A stretch of DNA of 64,000 nt from Clostridia bacterium (GTDB lineage Bacteria > Bacillota > DSM-521 > Neomoorellales > SLTJ01), in contig SLTJ01000025.1 in the NCBI GenBank assembly GCA_004347685.1, positions 1-64,000 on the forward strand, in the 5' to 3' direction. The first letter of the stretch is position 1, and every line of letters starts with the position of its first letter. The notes beneath the pieces are model-generated. The model did not search any database. It saw only the letters and a list, made by a program, of their open reading frames with translations, and was not told where the DNA came from. Shown here piece by piece: positions 1,081 to 19,317 of the stretch. The translations under genes were made by a program, and so were the position numbers.

Positions 1081-2724
1081 TTAGGGGCCCGGCACCACTT
1101 GGATAACTGTGGTATGCGTCTGGGCGAGCTTTTGGCCCGAGGTGGCGGTCAAGCCGGCATCCACCCGCAGGGTGTACGTCTGGCCGGGTAACAGGGCGTC
1201 ACGGGGCTTGAGCCAGAAGGTGGTATAGCCCCCGGTTTCGCCCGCGTTCACCTCGCCCACAAAATAAAGGGTGCAGGGCAGTTCGGCGCTGGCGGCGGTC
1301 AGCAGGTGGAAATGGGCGGCGGTACTCCCGTCTACCTTGACCGGCTGGTTAAAAACGATCTGCAGCGTCTGGGCCGGACCCATTTCCACAGCCCCCCCGC
1401 CCGGGGTGCCGGCCTCCGCCAGTTGCGCGGCCACCAGGTCCAGGTCCAGGCGGCCGTAGCCGGCGTAGTCGTCTTTGCCCGGCGGGCCGATGTCCACCAC
1501 GCCCTGGCGGATGATCTCCGCCACCTGGTCGGGCGTGGCCCCGGGTAGCTGGGACTTGACCAGGGCCGCCGCGGCCGAAACAAAGGGCGCGGCTATGGAC
1601 GTTCCGCTGGCGGGGGTATAGTCGGGATACAACCAGTAAGTGGTGAGGACATCCACCCCGGGCGCCGCCACCATCACTTGCGGACCGTGGTTCGAGAAGG
1701 GCGCCACCCGGTCGCCGCCGTCGCTGGCGGCCACGGCGATCACATGGGGCAGGGCCGCCGGGTAGGACACCGGGCCGCCATCATTGCCGGCGGCGGCCAC
1801 CACTACTGCGCCGCGCTCCCAGGCGTAGTAAACCGCGTCGGCCACGGCCTGAGAGTACTGGGGGCCGCCCAGGCTGAGGTTAACCACCTGCGCCCCACGG
1901 TCCACGGCGTGGGCAATGGCCTGGCTCACCAGGTATGTATCCGCCTCCCCCTGCAGGTTGACGACCCTCAAGGGCAATATCTTGACATTTTGCCGCCCGG
2001 CGGTGCCGGCAATGCCGGTGGCGTTGCCGGTGGCGGTGGCGATAACACCGGCCACCTCCGTGCCGTGCCCGTCCAGGTCCAGGGGGTAGGAATCGTTTAA
2101 GACAAAGTCCCAGGCCCCGTCGAGGGAGATGCGCCCCTGCAGGTCTTCGTGATAAAAATCGAGGCCCGTGTCAACCACGGCCACAATCACCGGTTCCGGG
2201 TTGGGCGCCAGCTTGTCCCAGGCCCCGGCGGCATTGATGGTGTGCAGCGCCCACTGGTCGGGAAACAGGGGATCGTTGGGGACGTACATCATCTGCAGGG
2301 GATAATTGGGCTCCACAAACTCCACGCGCCCGCTCCGCTTTAATTCTGTCATGGCCTCCTCCCTGTCCCTTACCCGGAGCAGGGATAGGTCCCGGTTTTC
2401 GTGGATTTTTTCGGCGGCGCATTTTTTAAGAAGCGCCTCTTTGCTGGCTTTGTCCGGCGGCTGTTTCCATTTCACGATAATCTCCCGGCTGTAGTCCCGG
2501 GCGGGCATCTGCTTCTCCCGCTGGCGCCGTTCTTCAATCAAACGGCGGACAGTCTCTTTAGAGTCGTAGACATGGCCGGCCACCGAAGGCGCCCGCGGAT
2601 TTCCCTGCAGGTAGGCCTGGCCATTTCCCGGCGGCCGGGCCACCGCCCGAGGTACATAAACAGCTACGGTTGTAAGAATTAGCAACCCCGCCAGCCACTG
2701 GTAATGAAAGCTTTTCGGTGACAG
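1081..2724 (-). CDS. Secreted S8 (subtilisin-like) serine protease with C-terminal Ig-like domain
   Basis: Subtilase of about 547 residues, predicted to be exported and to cleave proteins at or outside the cell surface. The order is a hydrophobic signal segment, a propeptide-like region (to about residue 130), then the catalytic domain with Asp in VVDTGLD, His in HGTEVAGV and Ser in GTSIAAPFV, all intact. The last ~100 residues resemble a bacterial Ig-like (SbsA/Big_5-type) domain. No ATG is in place. TTG at 2685 would cut the signal peptide short, whereas CTG at 2724 has GGAGG 8 nt upstream and yields a proper positively charged signal peptide (MSPKSFHYQWLAGLL). I therefore place the start at CTG. 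It lies downstream of surface-protein genes, so a role in envelope protein processing is possible but not shown. Confidence 0.85.
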   Translation of the reverse strand: MSPKSFHYQWLAGLLILTTVAVYVPRAVARPPGNGQAYLQGNPRAPSVAGHVYDSKETVRRLIEERRQREKQMPARDYSREIIVKWKQPPDKASKEALLKKCAAEKIHENRDLSLLRVRDREEAMTELKRSGRVEFVEPNYPLQMMYVPNDPLFPDQWALHTINAAGAWDKLAPNPEPVIVAVVDTGLDFYHEDLQGRISLDGAWDFVLNDSYPLDLDGHGTEVAGVIATATGNATGIAGTAGRQNVKILPLRVVNLQGEADTYLVSQAIAHAVDRGAQVVNLSLGGPQYSQAVADAVYYAWERGAVVVAAAGNDGGPVSYPAALPHVIAVAASDGGDRVAPFSNHGPQVMVAAPGVDVLTTYWLYPDYTPASGTSIAAPFVSAAAALVKSQLPGATPDQVAEIIRQGVVDIGPPGKDDYAGYGRLDLDLVAAQLAEAGTPGGGAVEMGPAQTLQIVFNQPVKVDGSTAAHFHLLTAASAELPCTLYFVGEVNAGETGGYTTFWLKPRDALLPGQTYTLRVDAGLTATSGQKLAQTHTTVIQVVPGP

Positions 2725-2770
2725 AAAAAATTCCTCCCCCGGTAGGTAGTTCCTAAATCGTTAACATGAG

Positions 2771-2798
2771 ACCATATTCCCTCAATATTTCATGTAAA
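2771..2798 (-). promoter_or_regulatory. Possible promoter of the S8 protease
   Basis: Minus strand TTTACA (2793-2798), 16-nt spacer, TATGGT (2771-2776), about 45 nt before the ribosome binding site. The match to sigma-A consensus is moderate. Confidence 0.4.
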
Positions 2799-2829
2799 AC
2801 TTCCGTATGCCTGGGACTGCGATAAGATA

Positions 2830-2864
2830 AGGCGCCCCCGGAGGGACAAGCCCCGGGGGCGCTG
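2830..2864 (-). terminator. Terminator of the Ig-like surface protein gene
   Basis: GCGCCCCCGG (2832-2841) pairs with CCGGGGGCGC (2853-2862), a 10-bp GC-rich stem. On the minus strand it is followed by cttatctta, a weak U-rich tail. It separates the surface-protein gene from the protease gene. Confidence 0.6.
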
Positions 2865-2927
2865 GCCACGGCACACGCTTACCAATAAGTTAACAAGTTA
2901 GTGCCAGGCACCATCTTTTCCCAAGAT

Positions 2928-5630
2928 TTACTTCTTAATCGCCTGCACGTTGAAGTAGCCGACTTTACCGTTGGGAGTTGTCAGCACCACCCGGAAGGAG
3001 CCGGAGGTCTTGTCAGCGGCGAAGTCTACACCAGTTAAGGTAATTTTTACCTCACCGGTCGAAGCGTCGACACTAACAGTGGGGTTGCCCGTGAGATTCA
3101 CCATATTGGTAACTGTAGGGGCGACAACGGCATGGGCCTTCCCACTTGCATTTGCTTGCGTAACCCGGCCGAACTGATCCAGGACGCCAGCGTACACCGC
3201 CTGGGAGACGCTCCAGCTACCGCTCTCATACACGGCATTCACGGTGGAGATTTCCGTGGTACCGGTGGCAAGCTTGAGATTTGTTGCGTCTACGGCCTTA
3301 TCGACGATGTACACCTTTTGAGCGGCCAAGCCAGCGCTGGACACGGTTACGCTCTTGGTCAGGGTCTTAACGTCGTCCTTGGTGTTGAACACAACCGTGA
3401 TGGTAGCTGTGACATCGTTGTTGAGACCGGAGTTGTTACCGTAAACCTTCCGGCTTGCAGAATCAACTGCTGCCTCCGTCTTATCACTGGTGATGCTCAG
3501 GATGTCGCTCGGGTTGATGGCGTAGCTGTTGCCGGAGGCATCGGTGGCGATAACCTCGACTTTTTCTGCGTACGGGCTAGCCGCACTACCTGCGCCCTTA
3601 TACAGCACTGGGATGTCCTTGATGCTGTAGGAGAGGCTGCTGGTAGCCGCCGCGACCGTAATGGTCTTGCTGGCTTGGCTGACTGTTTCGCCGGAAGTGT
3701 TAATAAGCTTGACCGTCAGGGTATAGGTACCCGTCTTGTAAGCATCAGCAGTCAAGGTAAAAGCATTGTTAGCAACAACAGAAGTTTCATCAGTTATGTC
3801 GCCTTTTGGCGTAACATCCAGGCCAACATCATCACCCGAAACCTTAGTGATGGCCACGTTGACCTTGTAATTACCGTCATTACTCGTGGGAACGAAGTCG
3901 GCTCCGTACTGATCCTTGAACTTAACTCCGAAAGTCTGAGTGGCACCTTGCAGCATGTTGCCTACCAGGGTGTCAGGCAGGGAAACCTGGGCCACGTGGC
4001 GGGCCGCCTGGGCCGTCAGGGTGATGGAGTCCGATCTGCCGGTCTCGTTGACGGTCACAGTTATGGTGGTGGTGCCAGTCCCGCTGATGGCGGCCGTGTT
4101 AACCAGCTTGCCCTTATTGGCGCCGGTAGTCTCGATTTTTAATTGATTCGACGCTATAACACTGCTGTTCGAAGAAGTTATCGTGAAAGCGGTAGATGCA
4201 ACAGCCGCTACCTGGTCTGCCGTAAGGGTGGCGCCGAACTGGTCCTGGACAGTGAGCGGGATGACAAGCGTCCCAACACCGTCACCAGCGGCGATTACCC
4301 CGGAGGGCGCGGTCAGGCTCACGGTAGCAGGGGCAGAGGGCTTGACGATCTCCAGGGTCTTGCTCGCGGTCCGGCCGGTACCATTGCTGATTACAGTTAT
4401 GGTAACCGACTTGGCCGTGGTGAGACCGGAGGTGTTAATAGTGATCGCTGCGTCCCTCGTGCCATCGTTACCGCCGTCCTTGTCGGTCAGCGTAGCAACA
4501 ACAGCACTATCCGAAGATACTACAGTAACCTTGCCGTTAAAGTCACCATATTTGCTCAGGACGTTGCCGTACTGGTCTTGCCCGGTCAGGGCTATACGGG
4601 CAGCCGGGTTAAGGCCAGTGAAGATCCGGGTGTTGGTACCGGGCAGGCTGATCTCTCCGAGGGTGAGGGACTGGACAACGGCTTCCGCCCCTACGGTGAA
4701 GGTGGCGCTTACGGTAGTCCCGGAGGCCGGATCAATACCCGTGATGACAAAGGAGTCCCCAGCCGCGAAGTCACTACCTTTATTAAAGGTAATGGTACCC
4801 GCATTGATGTCGGTTGCCGTGCCCTGCGAGGCCGTCCACTGGATGTTGGCGGCCACGGTCTCCTTAGTCACGTCCTGACCGTACTGGTCGAAAACCTTAT
4901 AACCAATGGTACCGGTTTGAGTTCCGGTCTTCACGATGACAGTGGACGTAAACTCGATCCTGGCAACCTTCTGGGCCTCTACCGTGACGGAACCGCCATT
5001 CTTACCTTCCGCGAAGTCCGCTCCGGATACGGTGACGGTGTAGGTTCCGGCCACCAGATTCGTAGAGGAACTCAGGGTAGCCGCCGTTTTGGCCTGATTC
5101 CAGGAAACGTCCAGAACTACGGGCGAAGTCCCCCTCTGCACGGTGAAGGACAAAGCCGCGGTATTTTCCACCGCCTTGCTGAAGGTAACTTCCAGGGCTT
5201 TAGCGCTAACCGCCTTTACCGAAGTTACCTCCAGTTGGACTTGGGCGCCGGTGTTGACCGCTGTGCCGTTGGGGTTCTGCTCGTTGTACAGGGTGATCTG
5301 GGCCGGGAGGTTCTCAGGCGGGTTGGCCTGGGCCCAGGCGGCAGCCGCTTGAGCATCGTTTAGATTAGGAGCCGTGCCGGCTACCAGGGCTTGCTCGAAC
5401 TTCGCCGAGTCGATGCCCACGCCGTCGGCGATGTACTGGATAAACCTTCCTCCGGCGGCTTGAATCTCGTTTAGAATCTGGTTAACCAGGCCGTGCAGGA
5501 CCGCGTAGTCCATATCCCAGCCCTTGTTCCCGACGACAATGGTGTTGGCCGGGACCGCGGCGAAGGCCGGGGCGGCGACGAACAGCATCATCGCCAGCAG
5601 CAGGACGAGGGCGACCGCTCTTTTCCTCAT
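2928..5630 (-). CDS. Secreted surface protein with repeated Ig-like (Big_2-type) domains
   Basis: A 900-residue exported protein. The start is ATG at 5630, giving a typical signal peptide (MRKRAVALVLLLAMMLFVAAPAFA) with a G-rich ribosome binding site upstream; the frame extends further but lacks these signals. After an N-terminal region of about 120 residues the protein is a string of beta-rich modules with phrases such as VTVSGADF, KVFDQYGQDVT and VKFKDQYGADF, typical of bacterial Ig-like domains in S-layer or adhesive proteins. Threonine, valine and alanine are abundant. No SLH domain is visible, so anchoring must differ from its neighbour at 5742-8774, which ends 111 nt upstream in the same direction. 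Co-transcription with that gene is plausible. Confidence 0.75.
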   Translation of the reverse strand: MRKRAVALVLLLAMMLFVAAPAFAAVPANTIVVGNKGWDMDYAVLHGLVNQILNEIQAAGGRFIQYIADGVGIDSAKFEQALVAGTAPNLNDAQAAAAWAQANPPENLPAQITLYNEQNPNGTAVNTGAQVQLEVTSVKAVSAKALEVTFSKAVENTAALSFTVQRGTSPVVLDVSWNQAKTAATLSSSTNLVAGTYTVTVSGADFAEGKNGGSVTVEAQKVARIEFTSTVIVKTGTQTGTIGYKVFDQYGQDVTKETVAANIQWTASQGTATDINAGTITFNKGSDFAAGDSFVITGIDPASGTTVSATFTVGAEAVVQSLTLGEISLPGTNTRIFTGLNPAARIALTGQDQYGNVLSKYGDFNGKVTVVSSDSAVVATLTDKDGGNDGTRDAAITINTSGLTTAKSVTITVISNGTGRTASKTLEIVKPSAPATVSLTAPSGVIAAGDGVGTLVIPLTVQDQFGATLTADQVAAVASTAFTITSSNSSVIASNQLKIETTGANKGKLVNTAAISGTGTTTITVTVNETGRSDSITLTAQAARHVAQVSLPDTLVGNMLQGATQTFGVKFKDQYGADFVPTSNDGNYKVNVAITKVSGDDVGLDVTPKGDITDETSVVANNAFTLTADAYKTGTYTLTVKLINTSGETVSQASKTITVAAATSSLSYSIKDIPVLYKGAGSAASPYAEKVEVIATDASGNSYAINPSDILSITSDKTEAAVDSASRKVYGNNSGLNNDVTATITVVFNTKDDVKTLTKSVTVSSAGLAAQKVYIVDKAVDATNLKLATGTTEISTVNAVYESGSWSVSQAVYAGVLDQFGRVTQANASGKAHAVVAPTVTNMVNLTGNPTVSVDASTGEVKITLTGVDFAADKTSGSFRVVLTTPNGKVGYFNVQAIKK

Positions 5631-5693
5631 GTTAATTGATTTCCCCCCACTTATCCAAAGTTTTTTGAGGCATATACCGCTATGCGGCAAGGG

Positions 5694-5720
5694 GCCACTG
5701 GCCCCCTTGGGGCCAGTGGC
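5694..5720 (-). other. Strong intercistronic hairpin between two surface-protein genes
   Basis: GCCACTGGCCCC (5694-5705) and GGGGCCAGTGGC (5709-5720) form a perfect 12-bp stem with a 3-nt loop. On the minus strand no T-run follows, so it is not a standard terminator. It could stabilise the upstream mRNA or reduce read-through into the downstream surface-protein gene. Confidence 0.6.
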
Positions 5721-5741
5721 GTCAACGCTACCTCGCTAGGC

Positions 5742-8700
5742 TTATAGGTTTACCTGAATCTCCTTCAGCACGTTACTTTGGGCGTCTTTAGCCGTGACCG
5801 TGGCGGTGTTGGTCTGCGGGTTGACGAACTTGAAGATGTACTGGCCGGCGCCGCCGATGTTCTGGCCCTGCAGGGTGCCAGCCACAGCAGTGACCGTAGC
5901 CACCTTGTTGGCATCGGCACCGCCCACGGTGACGGTTACGTACTTATTGAAGCCCAGGGACTGAACGCTGGCGCTCAACTGGACGTCGGGCTGGGTGGTC
6001 CCGCCACCGCCGCCGGGGGGCTGCTGCGTGCCTTCCGGCAGGTCATCCTCGGTGGCGTCGCCCTTGGTGATGACCACGTAGTCGTAGGCGCTGCCCTTGT
6101 CGTCGGTGTCAATGACGAAGACCAGGTCGTCGCGGTCCACGCCGCTGACCTTCTTCGGGCCGGCGCCCGGAGTCAGGTCCAGGTAGACCGTGCTGGAGGT
6201 CATGAGGAAGCTCTCCACCTCGCCGCCCTGCTCGGTCAGGCCCTTGAGGGTGGAGCTCCCGGAGCTGGACTTGGTGGCAAGCACCAACTCCGCGGCGTCA
6301 AGGTTCACGTCGTCCAGATCGGCCACCTGCAGGGCGTTGCTGCCCTTGCGGACGATGCGCTGCACCTTGGTGATCTTGTCGCTGGCGTTCAGCTCGTAGT
6401 AGATGAAGTCAGCCTTCTTGACCAGAGCCGCGTCGTCCTCGTCGTCCAGGACATAGGTCTTCTTGCTGCCGTCGGGCAGGAGGAGTTCCAGGGCGGTGTC
6501 GTCGCCCGAATACTCGAAGCCGGTGACCACGGCGTAGTTGCCCTTGGCCGCCAGAGCCTCACTGGTGTACGTGATGAACATGTACTCCACGTTCACACCG
6601 TCCAGGATGTAGGCGAAGTCCATGTCCTCGGCGTCTTCCACCGCGGACCAGCTTGCCAGGTCGGCGTCCTTTAGCTCGCCGTAACCGTCAGAAGCAACTT
6701 TGACGGTGCCGCTGGCGTCAAAGATGATGGTGTCGCTGGTGATGCGGTAGGACCTGCCGTTCAGGGTGATGACGTCGTCGTCCTTGTCAATGTCGCTGTC
6801 GGTAACCGAGTTATCTACCCGCACGCCCTTGTTGATGGTGGCGCTGTCCAGGTCGCCGTCGTTGGTCAGCTTGTACTCCAGGACCACCAGGCGGTTGTCG
6901 GCGGAGAGCGTCAGGGCGTCCTGGACATCGGCCCAGGCCATCTCGTCGCCGTCCGCGTCGAACCAGTCAACGTCGTTGTCGTCGAAGGTGAAGCTGAGCT
7001 TCTGGCCCTGACTGTTGAACAGGTTGAGCTGGTAGTTGCGGGTGTCCTTCTTGTAGAAGTTGGTGACGATGCCAACCTTCTTCTTGGTGATGTCGGCGTC
7101 GGTGACCACATGGGCGATCTTGCCGTCCACGGGCACCAGGTAGGCCTCCACCTTCTCGCCGTCAAGGTCGTTGAGGTCGGCGGCTTCGACGGCGTCAATG
7201 TCGTCATTGTTGTTGGTGGAGATGGTGGCCTTCTCGGCCATGTCGTACTTGGTGCCGTCAATGTAAAGGTCGTAATCCTTCACGGCACTGCTGCCGGCGT
7301 AGACGCGGCTGACTTCGCCGGACACCTTCTGGCTGGAGGCGACTATATAGGCCCACTTCTCGGGATGCAGGACGTTGCTGGCGTCATCGTCACCCACGAA
7401 GACGCGGATGACGTCCCACTGCTGCAGGTCGCTCAGCTTGGCCGCCTTGCCGTCGCGGACGATCAGATAATTGTCGGCGTCGCTCAGGTCGAGTTCGTCG
7501 CTGGTGCCGTCGCCGATCTTGTAAAGGCTAAGGTACTCGTCGTCGGCATTTACCTCGTCCACCAGGTAGGTCTGGTCCAGGGCATAGCCGTTGGTGTAGT
7601 CCATGATGTCGGCGAAGATGATCTCGTCGTCCTCGTTGAGGATGACCTTGACCTTGGCGTTCTTCAGGGCGCCGTCGCCGTCAATGGCGTCGTCGAGGCG
7701 GTCGAGCTGGAGACCGTCGTCCTGGTCATAGTCCCGGTAGGCCACGTTGTTGATGTAGATGGTGGCGCCGTCGGCGATGGTGTATTTCTTGTCCTTATTC
7801 TTCAGGTCGAGCTTGGTGTCGCCTGCGGCCACGTTGGAATCGAGGACGTCATTGACCACTTCCTCGTCGCCAGCCGCTTCCATGAACACTACCACGTCAT
7901 CGTCGTTCACCCAGACCTTGACCTGCTGGCCGAGGAAGTCGTCCGGGTTGATGCCTCCCAGAACCTCCAGGGTGCGGCCGTGGTCACCCAGGCCCTTGTC
8001 AAACTTTACTTCGTTGGCTTTCAGCTCGCCGATGGCTACCCGCGGCGTGGCCTGCACCCGAGGCAGATTTTTCTTGTCCTTGTAAACGTCCACTTTCAAG
8101 TATCTGCTCAGGATGGTCTCGTCGCTTTCCCCATAGCTGACCTCGGTGCCGTAGGAGGTCTGCTTCATGATGCCGACGTCCAGGGAGTTGTCCAGCATCA
8201 GGAAGACGTCGCCGCGCACGGCCGCGGTACTCCAGTTGGCGAAGCTGACGTCGTCCAGGACGCCCAGTTCGCCGCCCTTGGACAGGTAGTTGTTGGGCCA
8301 GGTGCCGGCGCTGGCCTGCACCGCGGGCTCATAGCCCAGGGCGCGCACCAGCATGGTCACGGCCTCGGCGTAGTTCACGTTGGCGTCGGGCTTGAAGGTC
8401 CCGTCCGGGTAGCCCTTAAGGATGCCGTTGCCGGTGGCCAGGTTAATGTAGCCGCTGGCCCAGTGGTCGGCCGGCACGTCAGAAAACTGGGTGGCACCCT
8501 TGGCCGACTGGGCGGCGCTCTCCAGGCCCAAAGCGCGGCAGACGATGGCCGCAAACTCCGCCCGGGTGATGTTCTTGTCCAGGCCCCAGGTGCCGTCAGG
8601 GTAGCCCTGGACGAGACCGAGGGCGTTGAGCCTCGTCACTACCTGGTCCAGGTTCACCTTCTCGCCGACTGCGGCGTTGGCCACCTGGGCGTTCCCGGCT

Positions 8701-8774
8701 AGGAGCACGGCCAAGCCGACGACGAAGGCGAGGGCCACTACCACCGAGACCCATTTGTTAGCCTTCTTTAACAC
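5742..8774 (-). CDS. Large S-layer homology (SLH) domain protein, left-hand member of the divergent pair
   Basis: A 1010-residue exported protein starting with GTG at 8774 (AGGGGGAAAACAA upstream). The signal peptide is followed by SLH domains with the signatures LGLVQGYPDGTWGLDKNITRAEF, FSDVPADHWASGYINLA and NGILKGYPDGTFKPDANVNYAEA, about residues 35-200. SLH domains bind pyruvylated secondary cell-wall polymers and anchor S-layer proteins. The long remainder is very rich in aspartate, with many D-D pairs, so calcium binding is possible. The C-terminus has a Gly-rich linker (GGGGGTT) and an Ig-like tail. The first codons closely match the SLH gene at 10215. No strong promoter is seen in the 142 nt before it. 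See the candidate switch in findings. Confidence 0.9.
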   Translation of the reverse strand: MLKKANKWVSVVVALAFVVGLAVLLAGNAQVANAAVGEKVNLDQVVTRLNALGLVQGYPDGTWGLDKNITRAEFAAIVCRALGLESAAQSAKGATQFSDVPADHWASGYINLATGNGILKGYPDGTFKPDANVNYAEAVTMLVRALGYEPAVQASAGTWPNNYLSKGGELGVLDDVSFANWSTAAVRGDVFLMLDNSLDVGIMKQTSYGTEVSYGESDETILSRYLKVDVYKDKKNLPRVQATPRVAIGELKANEVKFDKGLGDHGRTLEVLGGINPDDFLGQQVKVWVNDDDVVVFMEAAGDEEVVNDVLDSNVAAGDTKLDLKNKDKKYTIADGATIYINNVAYRDYDQDDGLQLDRLDDAIDGDGALKNAKVKVILNEDDEIIFADIMDYTNGYALDQTYLVDEVNADDEYLSLYKIGDGTSDELDLSDADNYLIVRDGKAAKLSDLQQWDVIRVFVGDDDASNVLHPEKWAYIVASSQKVSGEVSRVYAGSSAVKDYDLYIDGTKYDMAEKATISTNNNDDIDAVEAADLNDLDGEKVEAYLVPVDGKIAHVVTDADITKKKVGIVTNFYKKDTRNYQLNLFNSQGQKLSFTFDDNDVDWFDADGDEMAWADVQDALTLSADNRLVVLEYKLTNDGDLDSATINKGVRVDNSVTDSDIDKDDDVITLNGRSYRITSDTIIFDASGTVKVASDGYGELKDADLASWSAVEDAEDMDFAYILDGVNVEYMFITYTSEALAAKGNYAVVTGFEYSGDDTALELLLPDGSKKTYVLDDEDDAALVKKADFIYYELNASDKITKVQRIVRKGSNALQVADLDDVNLDAAELVLATKSSSGSSTLKGLTEQGGEVESFLMTSSTVYLDLTPGAGPKKVSGVDRDDLVFVIDTDDKGSAYDYVVITKGDATEDDLPEGTQQPPGGGGGTTQPDVQLSASVQSLGFNKYVTVTVGGADANKVATVTAVAGTLQGQNIGGAGQYIFKFVNPQTNTATVTAKDAQSNVLKEIQVNL

Positions 8775-8789
8775 TTGTTTTCCCCCTTC
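8768..8789. repeat. Left arm of a perfect 22-bp inverted repeat
   Basis: This 22-bp segment covers the ribosome binding site, GTG start and first codon of the left SLH gene. It is the exact reverse complement of 10200-10221, which covers the same elements of the right SLH gene. Similarity continues into the coding regions for about 30 more bp with mismatches and stops abruptly on the inner side. Confidence 0.9.
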
Positions 8790-8828
8790 AGTCGGGCTGG
8801 CTGTACCTTACCCGAACCTGAGATTAGT

Positions 8829-8840
8829 CCGGATATCCGG
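8829..8840. promoter_or_regulatory. 12-bp perfect palindrome upstream of the left SLH gene
   Basis: ccggatatccgg is a perfect dyad about 55 nt upstream of the GTG start of the left SLH gene and inside the putative invertible segment. It could be an operator or a recombinase/accessory protein site; nothing in the sequence decides this. Confidence 0.3.
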
Positions 8841-8916
8841 TCAAGGCGCAAGGCAAGCTTTACGTCCCCCTCCTCCATCGTCGCTATCCGCCGGCCGTCA
8901 TCTTTCCACCCGGTTA

Positions 8917-9774
8917 TTAGAGAAGCTCGACAGCTCGGCTCAGTTGCCAGGGACTTAAGTGAGTGTAGATGGTAGTGGTTTGCAGCGAAGCGTGGCCCAA
9001 GAGAGTAGCGATTTCCTGCAAGCCAACGCCTCTCTGGTATAGTCCAGTGGCAAAGCTGTGCCGCAACGTATGGGGGCTCACCTTCTTTTGGAGGCCGGCG
9101 ACCTTGGCGGCACGGTCAATGCAGTTGGCGATGTAGTGAGTGCTTATTTTTCCGCTCTTGGTAGCAAAGAAGGCGCAGCTTCGAACCTTGGCCCGGGTGT
9201 GCTCCAGGTAAGCTTGGAGTATTGCCGCAAGTTTAGTGTTGAGGGGAACCACCCGTTCTTTTCCTCCCTTAGCCTGGCGAATAGTAATGAGGTTTGTAGC
9301 GAAATCTACGTCTCCCAGCACCAGATTAACCACCTCTCCGACCCGCATGCCGCTGTAGTACAGGGTCCAGATGACGGCGCGGATGGTGTCGTTTGCGGCC
9401 CCCGCAGCCAACCGATCTATCTCCCCGCTGGTGAGGTATATTGGCAAGCGTTGCGGTCGCCTGGGGCTCCTGATCGAACCTGCCGGATTGACAGCCGTAA
9501 GGCCATGGTCTGTCGCATAGGTAAAGAACGACTTCAGCGCGGCCAGCTTCCTGCAGATGCTGGCCGGAGCCAGGTGGTGGCAGGTCTTAAGGTAGGTGAG
9601 GAAATCTTCAATATCCTGTCGTGAGACCTCGCTGGTCTCAATCTGACCGTCATATTTGCCCTCCATGAAGTCCATAAACTGGGAAATGTCGATCAGATAA
9701 CCATCCCGGGTACCCTGGGCCTTACCGCTCCAGACCAGGTACCCGGTCAGAAACCGGTTAACGTCGTCGCGCAT
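8917..9774 (-). CDS. Tyrosine recombinase (XerC/XerD-like site-specific recombinase)
   Basis: About 285 residues with an N-terminal SAM-like core-binding domain (to about residue 90) and a C-terminal catalytic domain. The catalytic set is complete: Arg in YYSGMRVGE, Lys in KGGKERVVP, H-x-L-R-H in SPHTLRHSFAT, His in LLGHASLQTT and Tyr in TTIYTHLS. This family cuts and rejoins DNA at specific short sites through a 3'-phosphotyrosine. I chose ATG at 9774; a TTG two codons upstream at 9780 sits 8 nt from GAGGGGG and may be the true start. Its setting is unusual: it lies alone between two divergent SLH genes whose start regions form a perfect 22-bp inverted repeat. That suggests local inversion rather than chromosome dimer resolution, though a displaced Xer protein is not excluded. 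Confidence 0.9.
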   Translation of the reverse strand: MRDDVNRFLTGYLVWSGKAQGTRDGYLIDISQFMDFMEGKYDGQIETSEVSRQDIEDFLTYLKTCHHLAPASICRKLAALKSFFTYATDHGLTAVNPAGSIRSPRRPQRLPIYLTSGEIDRLAAGAANDTIRAVIWTLYYSGMRVGEVVNLVLGDVDFATNLITIRQAKGGKERVVPLNTKLAAILQAYLEHTRAKVRSCAFFATKSGKISTHYIANCIDRAAKVAGLQKKVSPHTLRHSFATGLYQRGVGLQEIATLLGHASLQTTTIYTHLSPWQLSRAVELL

Positions 9775-9993
9775 ACTCAATACTCGTTCCCCCTCTGATC
9801 TTCGATTCATGAGCGTAGTCACGGTGCTTGCTGCCGGGCGGTGCCTATCCAGCAAAAAATTTTTCTTCCCCGGGAACTTTTTGCCCCCTTCTTGCGTCTA
9901 AAAGAAATAGAGTGGCAGGTCAGGCCCTTAGGACCGGTCCTCCTCCGGCCGCCGGGGCTGAGCGAAAAGCCATCCCAAACGGCCCGGAGGCAG

Positions 9994-10021
9994 TTGACTC
10001 GCCGGCCTGTCCTGGTATAAT
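9994..10021 (+). promoter_or_regulatory. Strong promoter reading toward the right-hand SLH gene
   Basis: TTGACT (9994-9999), 16-nt spacer, TATAAT (10016-10021) preceded by TGG. It gives a leader of about 185 nt to the GTG at 10215. It is the best sigma-A match in the interval between the two SLH genes and lies inside the 22-bp inverted repeat pair. Confidence 0.7.
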
Positions 10022-10199
10022 TTTCATTGCAACCGGGTTGATAAGAAATGGTGCTCCGGCACCACGAACCGTTTAAGGGGGGATGCCGGGAGAGGGCGAG
10101 GAAGCAAAGCAGTAGCAGGTGGTACATAGGGTTTAGTGTAAAGCCCTGATCCCGTGCGGGTACGGGCGCAACAAGTAGGGAATTGAGAAACCGGAAGAA
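10022..10199 (+). other. Long 5' leader of the right-hand SLH gene
   Basis: Untranslated stretch of about 180 nt between the promoter and the ribosome binding site. It contains no convincing gene and no riboswitch that I recognise. Long stable leaders are common on highly expressed S-layer transcripts. Confidence 0.4.
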
Positions 10200-10221
10200 G
10201 AAGGGGGAAAACAAGTGTTAA
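10200..10221. repeat. Right arm of a perfect 22-bp inverted repeat
   Basis: Exact reverse complement of 8768-8789. It contains GAAGGGGG (ribosome binding site) and the GTG start of the right SLH gene, so exchange between the two arms would keep both reading frames intact. Confidence 0.9.
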
Positions 10222-12962
10222 GGAAGGCAAATAAATGGGTATCGCTGCTCATTGCCATTACCTTTGCGGTAAGCCTTGTGGTGCCGCTGAGCGTTGGCGG
10301 CGGCGTGGCCCAGGCAGCCCAGTTCAGCGACGTGAGCGCCGACAATCCGGCCGCCAATTCCATCACCAAGCTGACGGCCCTGGGCATCATCGAGGGCTAT
10401 CCTGACGGCACCTTCAAGCCTGAAGGCAATATTACGCGGGCCGAGTTTGCCAAGATAGCGGTGATCACCGCCGGGCTGCAGCAGGCGGCCGACGTGCTGA
10501 AGAACACTCCATCTCGCTTCAGCGACGTGAAGGCTGGCGAGTGGTATACCGGTTGGGTAAACCTGGCCGAAGCCCAGGGCTTCATCAAGGGCTATCCCGA
10601 TGGGACCTTCAAACCCAATAACAACATCAGCTACGCAGAAGTAACCACGGTTCTGCTGCGCATCCTGGGTTACAACGACAACCTGCCGGGGAGTTGGCCG
10701 TCAGACTACCTGGCCAAGGCTGCGGCTCTCGGCGTTACCAAGAACGTCTCCTTTGACGCTATGGCTCCAGCCACCCGGGGCAATGTGGTGATCGTCGCCG
10801 ACGCCACATTGGACCAGGACGTAGTTCAGTACAACAAAGACACCGATTCATTTGATGAGAAGCTGGTCAACAACGTTAAGCAAAAGCTGGTCGAGAAGAA
10901 TTATAAGGGCCAGGTAACAGAAGATGCGCTGGTAGTGGACTGGGAAAAGGATACCTCCAGTGGCAAGTTGTACCTGAGACTGTATAAAAAGGATGCGGCT
11001 GCCAGCAACGGTGTTTATCCGGCTCCGGAGCGGATCGCCATGGTGGCTGATGCTGCCATCGCCGGTGCGGCCAACATCACCGGGCTGGAAGATAAGATTG
11101 TTGACTACACCACCAACGACGACGACGAGATAGTGTTTGTGTCCGTCAAGCCATATGAAGTGCTGAACGACACCGAGCAAGATGTGACCGGCACCAGCTT
11201 GGCCGATGCTACTATCTACAATAACGGCCGGTTCACCTATGACCACGACAAGAAGACCTACACCACGGCCAGCAACGCCAAGGTGTGGGATGCCGGCTCC
11301 GGCTCATACAAGACTGTCAGCCAGTACGTGTATGACATCGCTGGCGCCGGTGTGACCTCGACGGTGGTGCAGGGTATGCGTGTCCGCGCCGTCCTGAACA
11401 AGGACAACGAGGTAGTCCTGATCCGCACCTCGAACTTTGGCGCCCCGGCTCTGGTAAAGGAAGTCGTGCAGAGCAACAAGCGCATCCGGGTCTATTCAGG
11501 CGCTGATGGGGCTACCGGGGTTCCCACCAACCTCAACGACTCTGATATTACTTACGCGGTGGCCAAGGGCGGTCAATTGGTGGATCTCAACGCCATAGAG
11601 CCAGGCGACACCGTAAGCGTCCGCCCGGACGGTCATGGCTTTGACTGGTACCTTACCGTGAGCAAGAATACTGTGACCGGCAAGCTGGAATCCGCCGAAT
11701 ACAGCGGCGGCAACGCCTGGCGCATCAAGGTGGACGGCAAGAACTACGAGGTGGCCAAAACTGCAGCTAACGCCACTCAGGCCCGTTACTCCAGCAACGG
11801 CGGCGACAGCTTTGGTGCCTTCCCGCTGGCTTCGGGCGGCCTGGATGACGTGTTCGGCAAGCAGGTCACCATCTACCTGAACCCGGCCGGCGACGTGGAG
11901 TTCCTCATCGCCGACACAGAGGGTGCGGCTGCGGCTAACTACGGTGTGGTGTCTGAGCTTACCTATAAGTATAGTGGCAGCTCGCCAACGGCTACTGGCC
12001 TGACCAGTGTCCGCATCCTCAAGACCGATGGAACCAAGGCTACTTACAGCGTGACTGATGACAGTGTTATTGACGGTGTGGCTGCGGACCGCGATGCAGA
12101 CGGAAACGGCATCAAGGACGTAGTTGACACGGCTGCACCCTTGCCCGGTGGAAGCGTGTTACTGGCATCAGGTCAACTCGTTTCCTACAGCCTGGCAGCG
12201 GACGGCACCATCGACAGCATCAACATCATCAACAGCGATACTGGGGCTACTGACAGTATAGCTCAGATAGACAGCGACAATAAACGGGTGAGATTGACGG
12301 CAGGCGGGTGGGTCGGCATTTCCGACAGCAGCGTGATCTTCGACGCCTCCACTGCCAGCGATCTCAAGGTCTCCAACTGGACGGCGCTCAAGGGCACCGC
12401 AATCCCCGTAGGCGGCATACCCGTAGTGGTGAAGCTTGACAACGGCGTGGTGAAGTACCTGGCGAGCGGCACGGGCCTCACCGCTACAGCGGATTACGCT
12501 GTGGTTACCGGGACCGGCCGCAACGCCGATGGCGACTTTGTCAGCCTGGACATCAAGGGCTCGGCTGTGACTTATAAGTCAACGGTAGGATCCGTGTACT
12601 TTAGTGCCATCGGCCGCAAGTCCCTGATTACCTACACCCTCAGCGGCGACAAGATAACAGCCTTGACCGAGTACGTGAACAACAGTTCGCCTACCACGGT
12701 TGACCTGGCCGAAGTCACCAACATCAACCTCACGGCAGGCGGTATCGAGCTTAAGGTGGGCAGCACGTATACCTGGTACTACGTGGATAAGGATACGGTT
12801 ATCTATGACCTGACCGATCCTATCCAGTACGCCAAGCTGGAGGACATCTCCATCGGTGACCAAGTGTACCTGCCGTTTGATGTAAATGGTAATGGCACCC
12901 GGGTTGACGACATGCTGGGCACCAACAGCATCCTGAAGTTCCTGGTAATCCGCAACCCGTAA
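10215..12962 (+). CDS. Large SLH-domain surface protein, right-hand member of the divergent pair
   Basis: A 915-residue exported protein starting with GTG at 10215. The signal peptide (MLRKANKWVSLLIAITFAVSL) is similar to that of the left SLH protein. SLH domains follow at about residues 35-190, with LGIIEGYPDGTFKPEGNITRAEF, FSDVKAGEWYTGWVNLAEAQ and GFIKGYPDGTFKPNNNISYAEV. The remaining ~700 residues are a beta-rich ectodomain with Asp-Gly motifs and no family I recognise. It shares architecture but little obvious sequence with the left SLH protein beyond the N-terminus. A strong promoter and a good terminator flank it, consistent with a highly expressed S-layer protein. It could be the main S-layer subunit in the present orientation. 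Confidence 0.9.
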   Translation: MLRKANKWVSLLIAITFAVSLVVPLSVGGGVAQAAQFSDVSADNPAANSITKLTALGIIEGYPDGTFKPEGNITRAEFAKIAVITAGLQQAADVLKNTPSRFSDVKAGEWYTGWVNLAEAQGFIKGYPDGTFKPNNNISYAEVTTVLLRILGYNDNLPGSWPSDYLAKAAALGVTKNVSFDAMAPATRGNVVIVADATLDQDVVQYNKDTDSFDEKLVNNVKQKLVEKNYKGQVTEDALVVDWEKDTSSGKLYLRLYKKDAAASNGVYPAPERIAMVADAAIAGAANITGLEDKIVDYTTNDDDEIVFVSVKPYEVLNDTEQDVTGTSLADATIYNNGRFTYDHDKKTYTTASNAKVWDAGSGSYKTVSQYVYDIAGAGVTSTVVQGMRVRAVLNKDNEVVLIRTSNFGAPALVKEVVQSNKRIRVYSGADGATGVPTNLNDSDITYAVAKGGQLVDLNAIEPGDTVSVRPDGHGFDWYLTVSKNTVTGKLESAEYSGGNAWRIKVDGKNYEVAKTAANATQARYSSNGGDSFGAFPLASGGLDDVFGKQVTIYLNPAGDVEFLIADTEGAAAANYGVVSELTYKYSGSSPTATGLTSVRILKTDGTKATYSVTDDSVIDGVAADRDADGNGIKDVVDTAAPLPGGSVLLASGQLVSYSLAADGTIDSINIINSDTGATDSIAQIDSDNKRVRLTAGGWVGISDSSVIFDASTASDLKVSNWTALKGTAIPVGGIPVVVKLDNGVVKYLASGTGLTATADYAVVTGTGRNADGDFVSLDIKGSAVTYKSTVGSVYFSAIGRKSLITYTLSGDKITALTEYVNNSSPTTVDLAEVTNINLTAGGIELKVGSTYTWYYVDKDTVIYDLTDPIQYAKLEDISIGDQVYLPFDVNGNGTRVDDMLGTNSILKFLVIRNP

Positions 12963-12991
12963 CAGCCGGATAGAAATGAGGTGCACGGAGA

Positions 12992-13018
12992 GAGGCGGGC
13001 TTTCCCGCCTCTTTCTTT
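12992..13018 (+). terminator. Terminator of the right SLH gene and group IIC intron target
   Basis: GAGGCGGG (12992-12999), loop CTTT, CCCGCCTC (13004-13011), then tttcttt. It is a classic intrinsic terminator 30 nt after the stop codon. The intron remnant begins immediately after its T-tract. Confidence 0.9.
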
Positions 13019-13345
13019 GTGCGCCCGGGCATGGGCGCAGGCTCGCGGGTGGAAGACCCGAGCGACGAAGGTAGCGGTAGTCGTTAGCTTAAGGTAAGGG
13101 TGTCCGTCGCGAGGCCGGGTACCCGCCGAGGTGGGTGCTGAAGGAAGCTGGCGGCAAACCTCCGGCCCGAGGACAACGAACCCCGGGTGGGGCTAGTGGC
13201 GTTGACGAGTTTACCAAACAAAACGAAGTCCTTGCTACCGGAGGCTGCCAAGAGTAAATGGGGCGATGTAGATGGAGGGAAAGACAGTACTCTTACCCGA
13301 TGGTGGATAAGGGGGCTTTCCCCGGCGGTTGCCTTGCCATGTGAG
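13019..13345 (+). mobile_element. 5' fragment of a group IIC intron (ribozyme domains I to about III)
   Basis: It starts GTGCGCCCGGGCATGGGCGC directly after a terminator T-tract, the hallmark target of bacterial class C introns. From memory of the Oceanobacillus iheyensis IIC intron, the order of conserved blocks agrees: ggtggaagacccgagc, taagggtgtccgt, gctgaaggaagc, ggcaaacctccgg, aaacaaaacgaagtcctt, gagtaaatg, gagggaaagac and cttacccg. After about 13345 the similarity fades. I find no reverse transcriptase/maturase frame and no domain V hairpin before the next gene at 13418, so this is a dead 5' remnant unless a partner exists elsewhere. The 3' boundary is approximate. Confidence 0.85.
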
Positions 13346-13417
13346 GCATGCTGGTAACATCCATTTGGAGGAGACTTTGCCCGGTAAAACAAGCATCCTG
13401 AAAGGAGTATAACTGTT

Positions 13418-15633: not shown

Positions 15634-15667
15634 GGACGCCGCCATCTCCTTCTTGCCCTCCCCAGAC

Positions 15668-15990
15668 CGGTGGCCAAGATCACCAGCCTCCCGGCAGGAA
15701 ATCCCTTCCCCGTGCCGAAACAGGTACTGTCAACCATCCCAAGCCGTGGTATAATATAAGCACCAGGGGAGTGTCTAAGCTTGCCCAACAAACAGTGGCA
15801 TCCGGCCTTTGTGGCCGCCGTCAGGGAAGCGTTGAAGGACGCCCCTCCGGGGGAGGTGGAAGTAATCCCCGAGGTGGCCCTCTCCTCCAAGCCCCTGGGC
15901 GTAGATGTATTGGTAGTCAAGAAGTCGGAAGAAATAAAGCTGGCGCATCCCATAGCGAGATTTTTCCGGCGCTACAACCTGTTCGAGTAC
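15668..15990 (+). repeat. Dispersed repeat, copy B (intact nuclease 5' region)
   Basis: It matches copy A (67-375, inverted) from caagatcacca through the promoter and the first ~66 codons of the nuclease, and copy C (19040-19262) over the promoter and first ~40 codons. Confidence 0.85.
15727..15755 (+). promoter_or_regulatory. Promoter of the intact nuclease gene
   Basis: CTGTCA (15727-15732), 17-nt spacer, TATAAT (15750-15755) with TGG before it. It is preserved base for base in copies A and C except at single spacer positions. Confidence 0.7.
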
Positions 15991-18711: not shown

Positions 18712-19086
18712 GCTGAGGAGTTTTGTCTTCCCCGCCCTTGCTCATCGCCCGATTCCCATCCATCCTTCTCGGCCGGTGGGTGAGGACACAGCCTGCTACT
18801 GGTCATCCTCGACCGGGTCAGGCAGTGGTCGGAGGCGACGCCCCGCTACCCTCCCGTACATCCTCCCTTGCCGCCGCCCGTCCCGCTCCCCTGGCCCCTC
18901 GGCAAGGTTAGCCCCCGGCCGGGCGCCATTTTGGGTAGACCGCCTCTCGGCCCGCCGGCCACCTCCTCCAGCTCCAGGCCATTCCCTGCCTCCCCGCCGC
19001 TTAGCCTCACACCCTCCCGACCCCTGCCTACGGCAAAGACGTCCAGCCTCCCGGCAGGAAATCCCTCCCCCTTGCCGAAACAGGTA
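18712..19086 (+). repeat. C-rich intergenic spacer, family member 4
   Basis: About 375 nt without a gene, C-rich on the plus strand, joining at about 19040 to copy C of the nuclease repeat (cctcccggcaggaaatccct). Confidence 0.5.
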
Positions 19087-19115
19087 CTGTCAACCATCCC
19101 AAGCCGTGGTATAAT
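19087..19115 (+). promoter_or_regulatory. Promoter of nuclease copy C
   Basis: CTGTCA (19087-19092), 17-nt spacer, TATAAT (19110-19115), identical in layout to copies A and B. It may now drive the HicB-like gene downstream. Confidence 0.65.
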
Positions 19116-19140
19116 GTAACCGCGAGGGAAGTGCCGAAGC

Positions 19141-19317
19141 TTGCCCAACAAACAGTGGCACCCGGCCTTCGTGGCCGCCGTCAGAGAAGCGTTGAAGGAC
19201 GCCCCTCCGGGGGAGGTGGAAGTAATCCCCGAGGTGGCCCTGTCGTCTAAGCCCCTGGGCACCGACCTGCGGGTATTCCAAAAGGACGAAGGGGTTGGGC
19301 TCAACTTCTCCGGTTAG
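19141..19317 (+). pseudogene. Truncated 5' copy of the nuclease gene (copy C)
   Basis: TTG at 19141 opens a 58-residue frame. The first ~40 residues match the intact nuclease (MPNKQWHPAFVAAVREALKD), then it diverges (TDLRVFQKDEG) and stops. It ends before the catalytic motif and is a remnant. Confidence 0.8.

Follow-up and report, generated by a model that had tools for sequence, protein, structure and literature searches.

A 1.45-kb segment (8768-10221) between two divergent S-layer genes could well be an invertible promoter switch like slp of Lactobacillus acidophilus, a tentative reading whose chance of being right falls just short of even. The segment belongs to the window, the whole stretch of 64,000 nucleotides of DNA that was analysed. 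Its parts and the two genes beside it are, from left to right:

5742-8774, minus strand: left SLH gene, winL (1010 aa, two SLH domains, intact)
8768-8789, minus strand: left arm of the 22-bp inverted repeat, covering the ribosome-binding site (RBS), GTG and codon 2 of the left SLH gene
8790-8916, minus strand: left SLH leader, short, after the recombinase stop
8917-9855, minus strand: tyrosine recombinase gene (312 aa, intact; the true start may be further in)
9994-10021, plus strand: sigma-70-type promoter, TTGACT-16-TATAAT, with an extended -10 and 11 of 12 consensus matches
10022-10199, plus strand: right SLH leader, with a hairpin at 10050-10063 and a purine-rich element from 10072
10200-10221, plus strand: right arm of the 22-bp inverted repeat, covering the RBS, GTG and codon 2 of the right SLH gene
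10215-12962, plus strand: right SLH gene, winR (915 aa, two SLH domains, intact)

In the proposed switch, the internal recombinase would recombine the 22-bp arms over the RBSs and start codons of the two genes, and the inversion would place the single promoter and its long leader in front of the left gene instead of the right one, so that alternative S-layers could be made. The recombinase gene would flip with the segment and would always point at the gene that has no promoter. In the assembled orientation, the left gene would be silent. Since the RBS and start codon lie inside the arm, neither protein would be altered by inversion, just as the initial annotation had argued.

The letters of 8768-8789, TTAACACTTGTTTTCCCCCTTC, match the reverse complement of 10200-10221 exactly, which verifies the perfect inverted repeat that had been described at the divergent SLH gene starts. 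Read in gene orientation, the arm is GAAGGGGGAAAACAAGTGTTAA, made up of the RBS AAGGGGGA, a 6-nt spacer, the GTG start, the second codon TTA and one further base. The arms are separated by 1410 bp, and no longer exact inverted repeat is present between 2.9 and 15 kb; the inverted repeats of the window that exceed 22 bp belong to an unrelated dispersed family at 0-0.4, 15.7-16 and 19-19.3 kb. When up to three mismatches are allowed, the 22-mer has only two copies in the 3.12-Mb genome, both of them the arms, and this restriction to the two gene starts favours the switch. Among 397 other genomes of the phylum, a search with up to two mismatches yields one genome with a single two-mismatch site, and viral contigs contain no match. 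A further arm-like sequence within the segment, GAAGGGGGCAAAAAGT on the minus strand at about 9876-9893, was rejected as a third copy, its score of 12 standing beside window background scores of 13, 11 and 11. Folding of the start regions reveals nothing unusual. In a scan of the arm for two inverted half-sites round a short spacer, about 10% of shuffled sequences reach the best score, and this want of a clear dyad disfavours the switch. The similarity continues beyond the arm into the signal-peptide codons with mismatches, as had also been noted, 26 of 30 nt being identical over codons 1-10; of the four changes, three fall at third positions and one replaces Lys by Arg. Upstream of position -15 it breaks off abruptly. 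Coding similarity is superfluous for a bare recombination site and the arm doubles as a translation start, both of which speak against the switch.

The promoter at 9994-10021, judged by its consensus match only, is the single strong one in the segment and reads toward the right SLH gene, in agreement with the initial annotation; that it faces right only favours the switch. On the minus strand, the best site in a relaxed scan matches 8 of 12 positions. The further claim that no promoter is directed toward the left gene holds for sigma-70 consensus sites and is open to challenge from read-through out of the recombinase gene. Between the end of this gene and the left SLH gene, which has the same orientation, lie 142 nt in which no terminator is detected, so that read-through could give the left gene some expression.

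Both SLH proteins, winL and winR, have two stretches above the PF00395 cut-off and are predicted from their sequences to be SLH-domain S-layer proteins; they share 32% overall protein identity. In a tree of 20 SLH proteins, winL pairs with G032 (support 96/96), while winR pairs with G023b (100/99), far from winL. The two genes are ancient paralogues that split before the bacterial families did, and a recent duplication of the start region is ruled out since an orthologue of each is found in another family. The start blocks, compared by local alignment from -40 to +35, score 38 between winL and winR, whereas against every other gene, own orthologues included, winL scores at most 14 and winR at most 15. 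G023a and G023b, an ancient pair within one genome, score 11. Because the paralogy is ancient and the starts are closer to each other than to those of their orthologues, a single recent duplication fails to explain them, and shared descent of two paralogous start regions, which had been put forward as the chief alternative, is weakened. The start block is a form common to winL and winR only, and it is absent from the other SLH genes of the window genome. Both the score of 38 between ancient paralogues, against at most 15 elsewhere, and this absence favour the switch. On the comparison of these genes, it seems that either the starts exchange DNA or selection keeps both the same.

The main rival explanation, quite possible though we lean against it, is that there is no switch. 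Both genes would need the same strong initiation and export-signal start, possibly with past gene conversion; the recombinase would be incidental, and the left gene would be read from the recombinase transcript or from an unrecognised promoter. Selection acting on translation initiation and the signal peptide, whether or not gene conversion once took place, may account for the starts, because the start regions of other S-layer genes can remain alike over great distances. The RBS AAGGGGGA is very frequent at the starts of the phylum's S-layer genes in many genera. G099 and G058, of two genera, have 36 identical bp at S-layer gene starts without any switch. A stretch of 36 identical bp is also found between tandem, same-direction paralogues of G043, and a score of 38 is likewise reached by the start blocks of G032 and G058, which lie far apart in the tree. 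These resemblances disfavour the switch. G055 and a Syntrophomonadaceae MAG also have proteins that begin with MLKKxNK. A degenerate start pattern has 11 matches in genome contigs, one of which (L163, in a Syntrophomonadaceae MAG) is an SLH start with the related beginning MLKKHNK. An account without a switch also fits the arm, which is exactly the functional start region with changes beyond it mostly at third codon positions, and the genes, since both SLH genes are intact and the recombinase and left gene have no terminator between them. It fits less well with the start form of winL and winR, which is seen in no orthologue and is not used by the genome's other SLH genes. With just five occurrences in the genome, close to the background rate, AAGGGGGAAAA does not serve as a strong start in general use there, which also counts against an account without a switch. 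The proposal of a promoter switch is strengthened by the anatomy of the segment, by the paralogy and by a recombinase that is neither XerC nor XerD, and is weakened by the coincidence of the arms with conserved S-layer initiation signals; the evidence moves towards recombination but stops short of proof.

The recombinase between the arms is complete, as had been stated, matching PF00589 with an E value of 2e-36 and retaining the full catalytic set of R, K, HxxR, H/W and Y (R171, K196/K199, H262, R265, H288 and Y297). Its alignment with solved structures of XerA and XerC-like proteins extends over every catalytic position. It is neither XerC nor XerD, since it scores 213 bits against NCBIfam cut-offs of 335 and 330 and is separated from both at 100/100 in a tree; elsewhere, the window genome encodes XerD (C11) and another Xer protein (C29). 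A profile search of 398 genomes of the phylum gives much better matches in about ten genomes (272-567 bits) than the generic Xer background (up to 211 bits), with scores that favour G054, because the proteins of the window and G054 went into the profile; a tree gives a fairer comparison. One tree of 34 rows places the window recombinase with this orphan clade, away from XerC/XerD (100/100), and one of 59 rows joins it to the clade core with support of 81/94. In both trees it is the outermost member, on a long branch. No close relative was found, a search of genome contigs giving nothing, and no relative was found to share the locus. The long branch of the clade link, the want of a close relative, and the lack of a relative with the locus or of an inverted molecule or strain all disfavour the switch.

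The clade includes G054, G367, G027, G249, G216, G309, G378, G355, G371 and G209 (loci L193-L202 for all but G054). In nearly all complete clade loci, a conserved partner protein of 220-290 aa, which has no Pfam match and belongs to PHROG 2727 of unknown function, adjoins the recombinase. The partner is missing from the window and from the whole window genome, a point against the switch. The neighbours of the clade include Big-type surface proteins, some of them leaderless, in G054, G355, G367 and G309, flagellins, one with an N-terminal domain only, in G027 and G371, and, in G249 and G378, pilin-like fragments that match nothing in Pfam. The association of the clade with surface-protein loci is suggestive, and an intact recombinase that lies between the arms and comes from a clade often found beside surface-protein genes and leaderless cassettes favours the switch. 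A broader proposal, which we consider rather unlikely, is that an unnamed orphan lineage, mostly paired with the partner, rearranges surface genes (S-layer/Big, flagellins and possibly pilins), and that the window holds a partner-less branch which flips a promoter and leader between ancient S-layer paralogues at their translation starts.

The nearest relative of the window recombinase, in G054, is located beside an S-layer cluster (L132, G054:C3:34000-53000, 1850-13413). This locus has an exported Big-type gene at 10489-13413 on the minus strand and a leaderless Big cassette at 6504-8369 on the plus strand, 6.6 kb away and facing the opposite direction. The similarity of the gene and the cassette begins at a common 16-mer, TAAGTGCTATTAACGC, and two more related repeats are present at 1850 and 2642. 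The locus looks like a shufflon-type surface-protein system.

It is improbable that chance placed between the two genes a recombinase that is an orphan or remnant integrase, inactive or acting at other sites. PHROG integrase families match, relatives of the window protein in G309 and G216 lie at the end of phage tail modules, and its isolated position on a long branch would suit such an origin. Its gene, however, is intact with a full active site, no attachment-site-like direct repeats and no phage or transposon genes flank it, and no relative was found in viral contigs. A mobile element around the recombinase is rejected on the lack of such flanking repeats and genes and of a relative in viral contigs.

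The slp segment of L. acidophilus is longer than the segment described here, and its recombination sequence resembles serine-invertase sites. In the window, the candidate enzyme is a tyrosine recombinase encoded inside the segment and the surface proteins carry SLH domains. Of the two S-layer genes of L. acidophilus, one is expressed, and inversion of chromosomal DNA exchanges it for the other (PMC7858073, PMC5893755). The slpA/slpB inversion of the slp segment is credited to Boot et al. (1996) in the passages of PMC7858073 and PMC6176008 that cite it. Inversion at slp has been demonstrated, whereas inversion in the window is predicted from sequence.

At cwpV of Clostridioides difficile, which encodes a cell-wall surface protein, the Xer-type tyrosine recombinase RecV acts with imperfect 21-bp repeats (PMC2784873). 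The window resembles this system in having an Xer-type tyrosine recombinase, short repeats and a surface protein. At cwpV, however, 195 bp between the promoter and one gene are inverted, control operates through transcription termination, and recV is elsewhere in the genome (PMC2784873), while the window segment holds both the promoter and the recombinase and lies between two genes. In layout, with the recombinase inside the segment and a promoter choosing between alternative surface proteins, the window resembles hin of Salmonella. Hin is a serine recombinase, and the second flagellin of Salmonella is controlled partly by a repressor, whereas the window has two divergent genes. In the Salmonella system, the recombinase gene is within the inverted segment and the promoter chooses between surface antigens (PMC2784873). 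The invertons of gut bacteria combine inverted repeats of 10-40 nt near surface genes with tyrosine recombinases (PMC11892184). The perfect 22-bp arms are within this range of lengths, and the internal promoter facing a gene outside the segment, by which invertons are also recognised, is found at 9994-10021, directed toward the right SLH gene. Invertons were called from reads in both orientations and the window is known from one assembled orientation; the window arms also differ in lying inside the initiation regions of the genes.

If the promoter switch is real, it would be an SLH-type S-layer switch with its recombinase, promoter and sites in one 1.45-kb cassette. The crossover site would be the RBS and start codon, so that either gene could be driven with the proteins unchanged, and this would explain why anciently diverged S-layer paralogues have kept identical starts. 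The analysis also points to a recombinase lineage that may be relevant for the S-layer and flagellin loci of other species.

The right SLH leader has the length of about 180 nt that had been assigned to it. In other genera (L133, L134, L141, L142, L148 and L151), S-layer leaders have a hairpin, CTAAAGG-loop-CCTTTAG, followed by TTGAARGGRGKGAT and then AAGGGGGA, the purine-rich element TTGAARGGRGKGAT lying at -80 to -143. The hairpin and element of the right leader (10050-10084) are similar to these at the motif level only. This layout is possibly an undescribed S-layer leader element, as judged from the shared motifs. A profile search did not rank the right-leader element site, an alignment of eight leaders has no convincing covariation, and Rfam contains no RNA family for the leader. 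The left leader has no promoter and neither the hairpin nor the element of S-layer leaders; a perfect 12-bp palindrome, CCGGATATCCGG, is present in it at 8829-8840.

The dispersed repeats of the window, at 54-384, 15657-15987 and 19032-19291, are about 260-330 bp long and 87-90% identical, occur in both orientations and overlap pieces of a repeated gene family. An exported protein of 920 aa without a Pfam match is encoded at 2928-5690 on the minus strand, immediately downstream of the left SLH gene; its start resembles, by eye, that of the Big-type protein which follows an SLH gene in G054.
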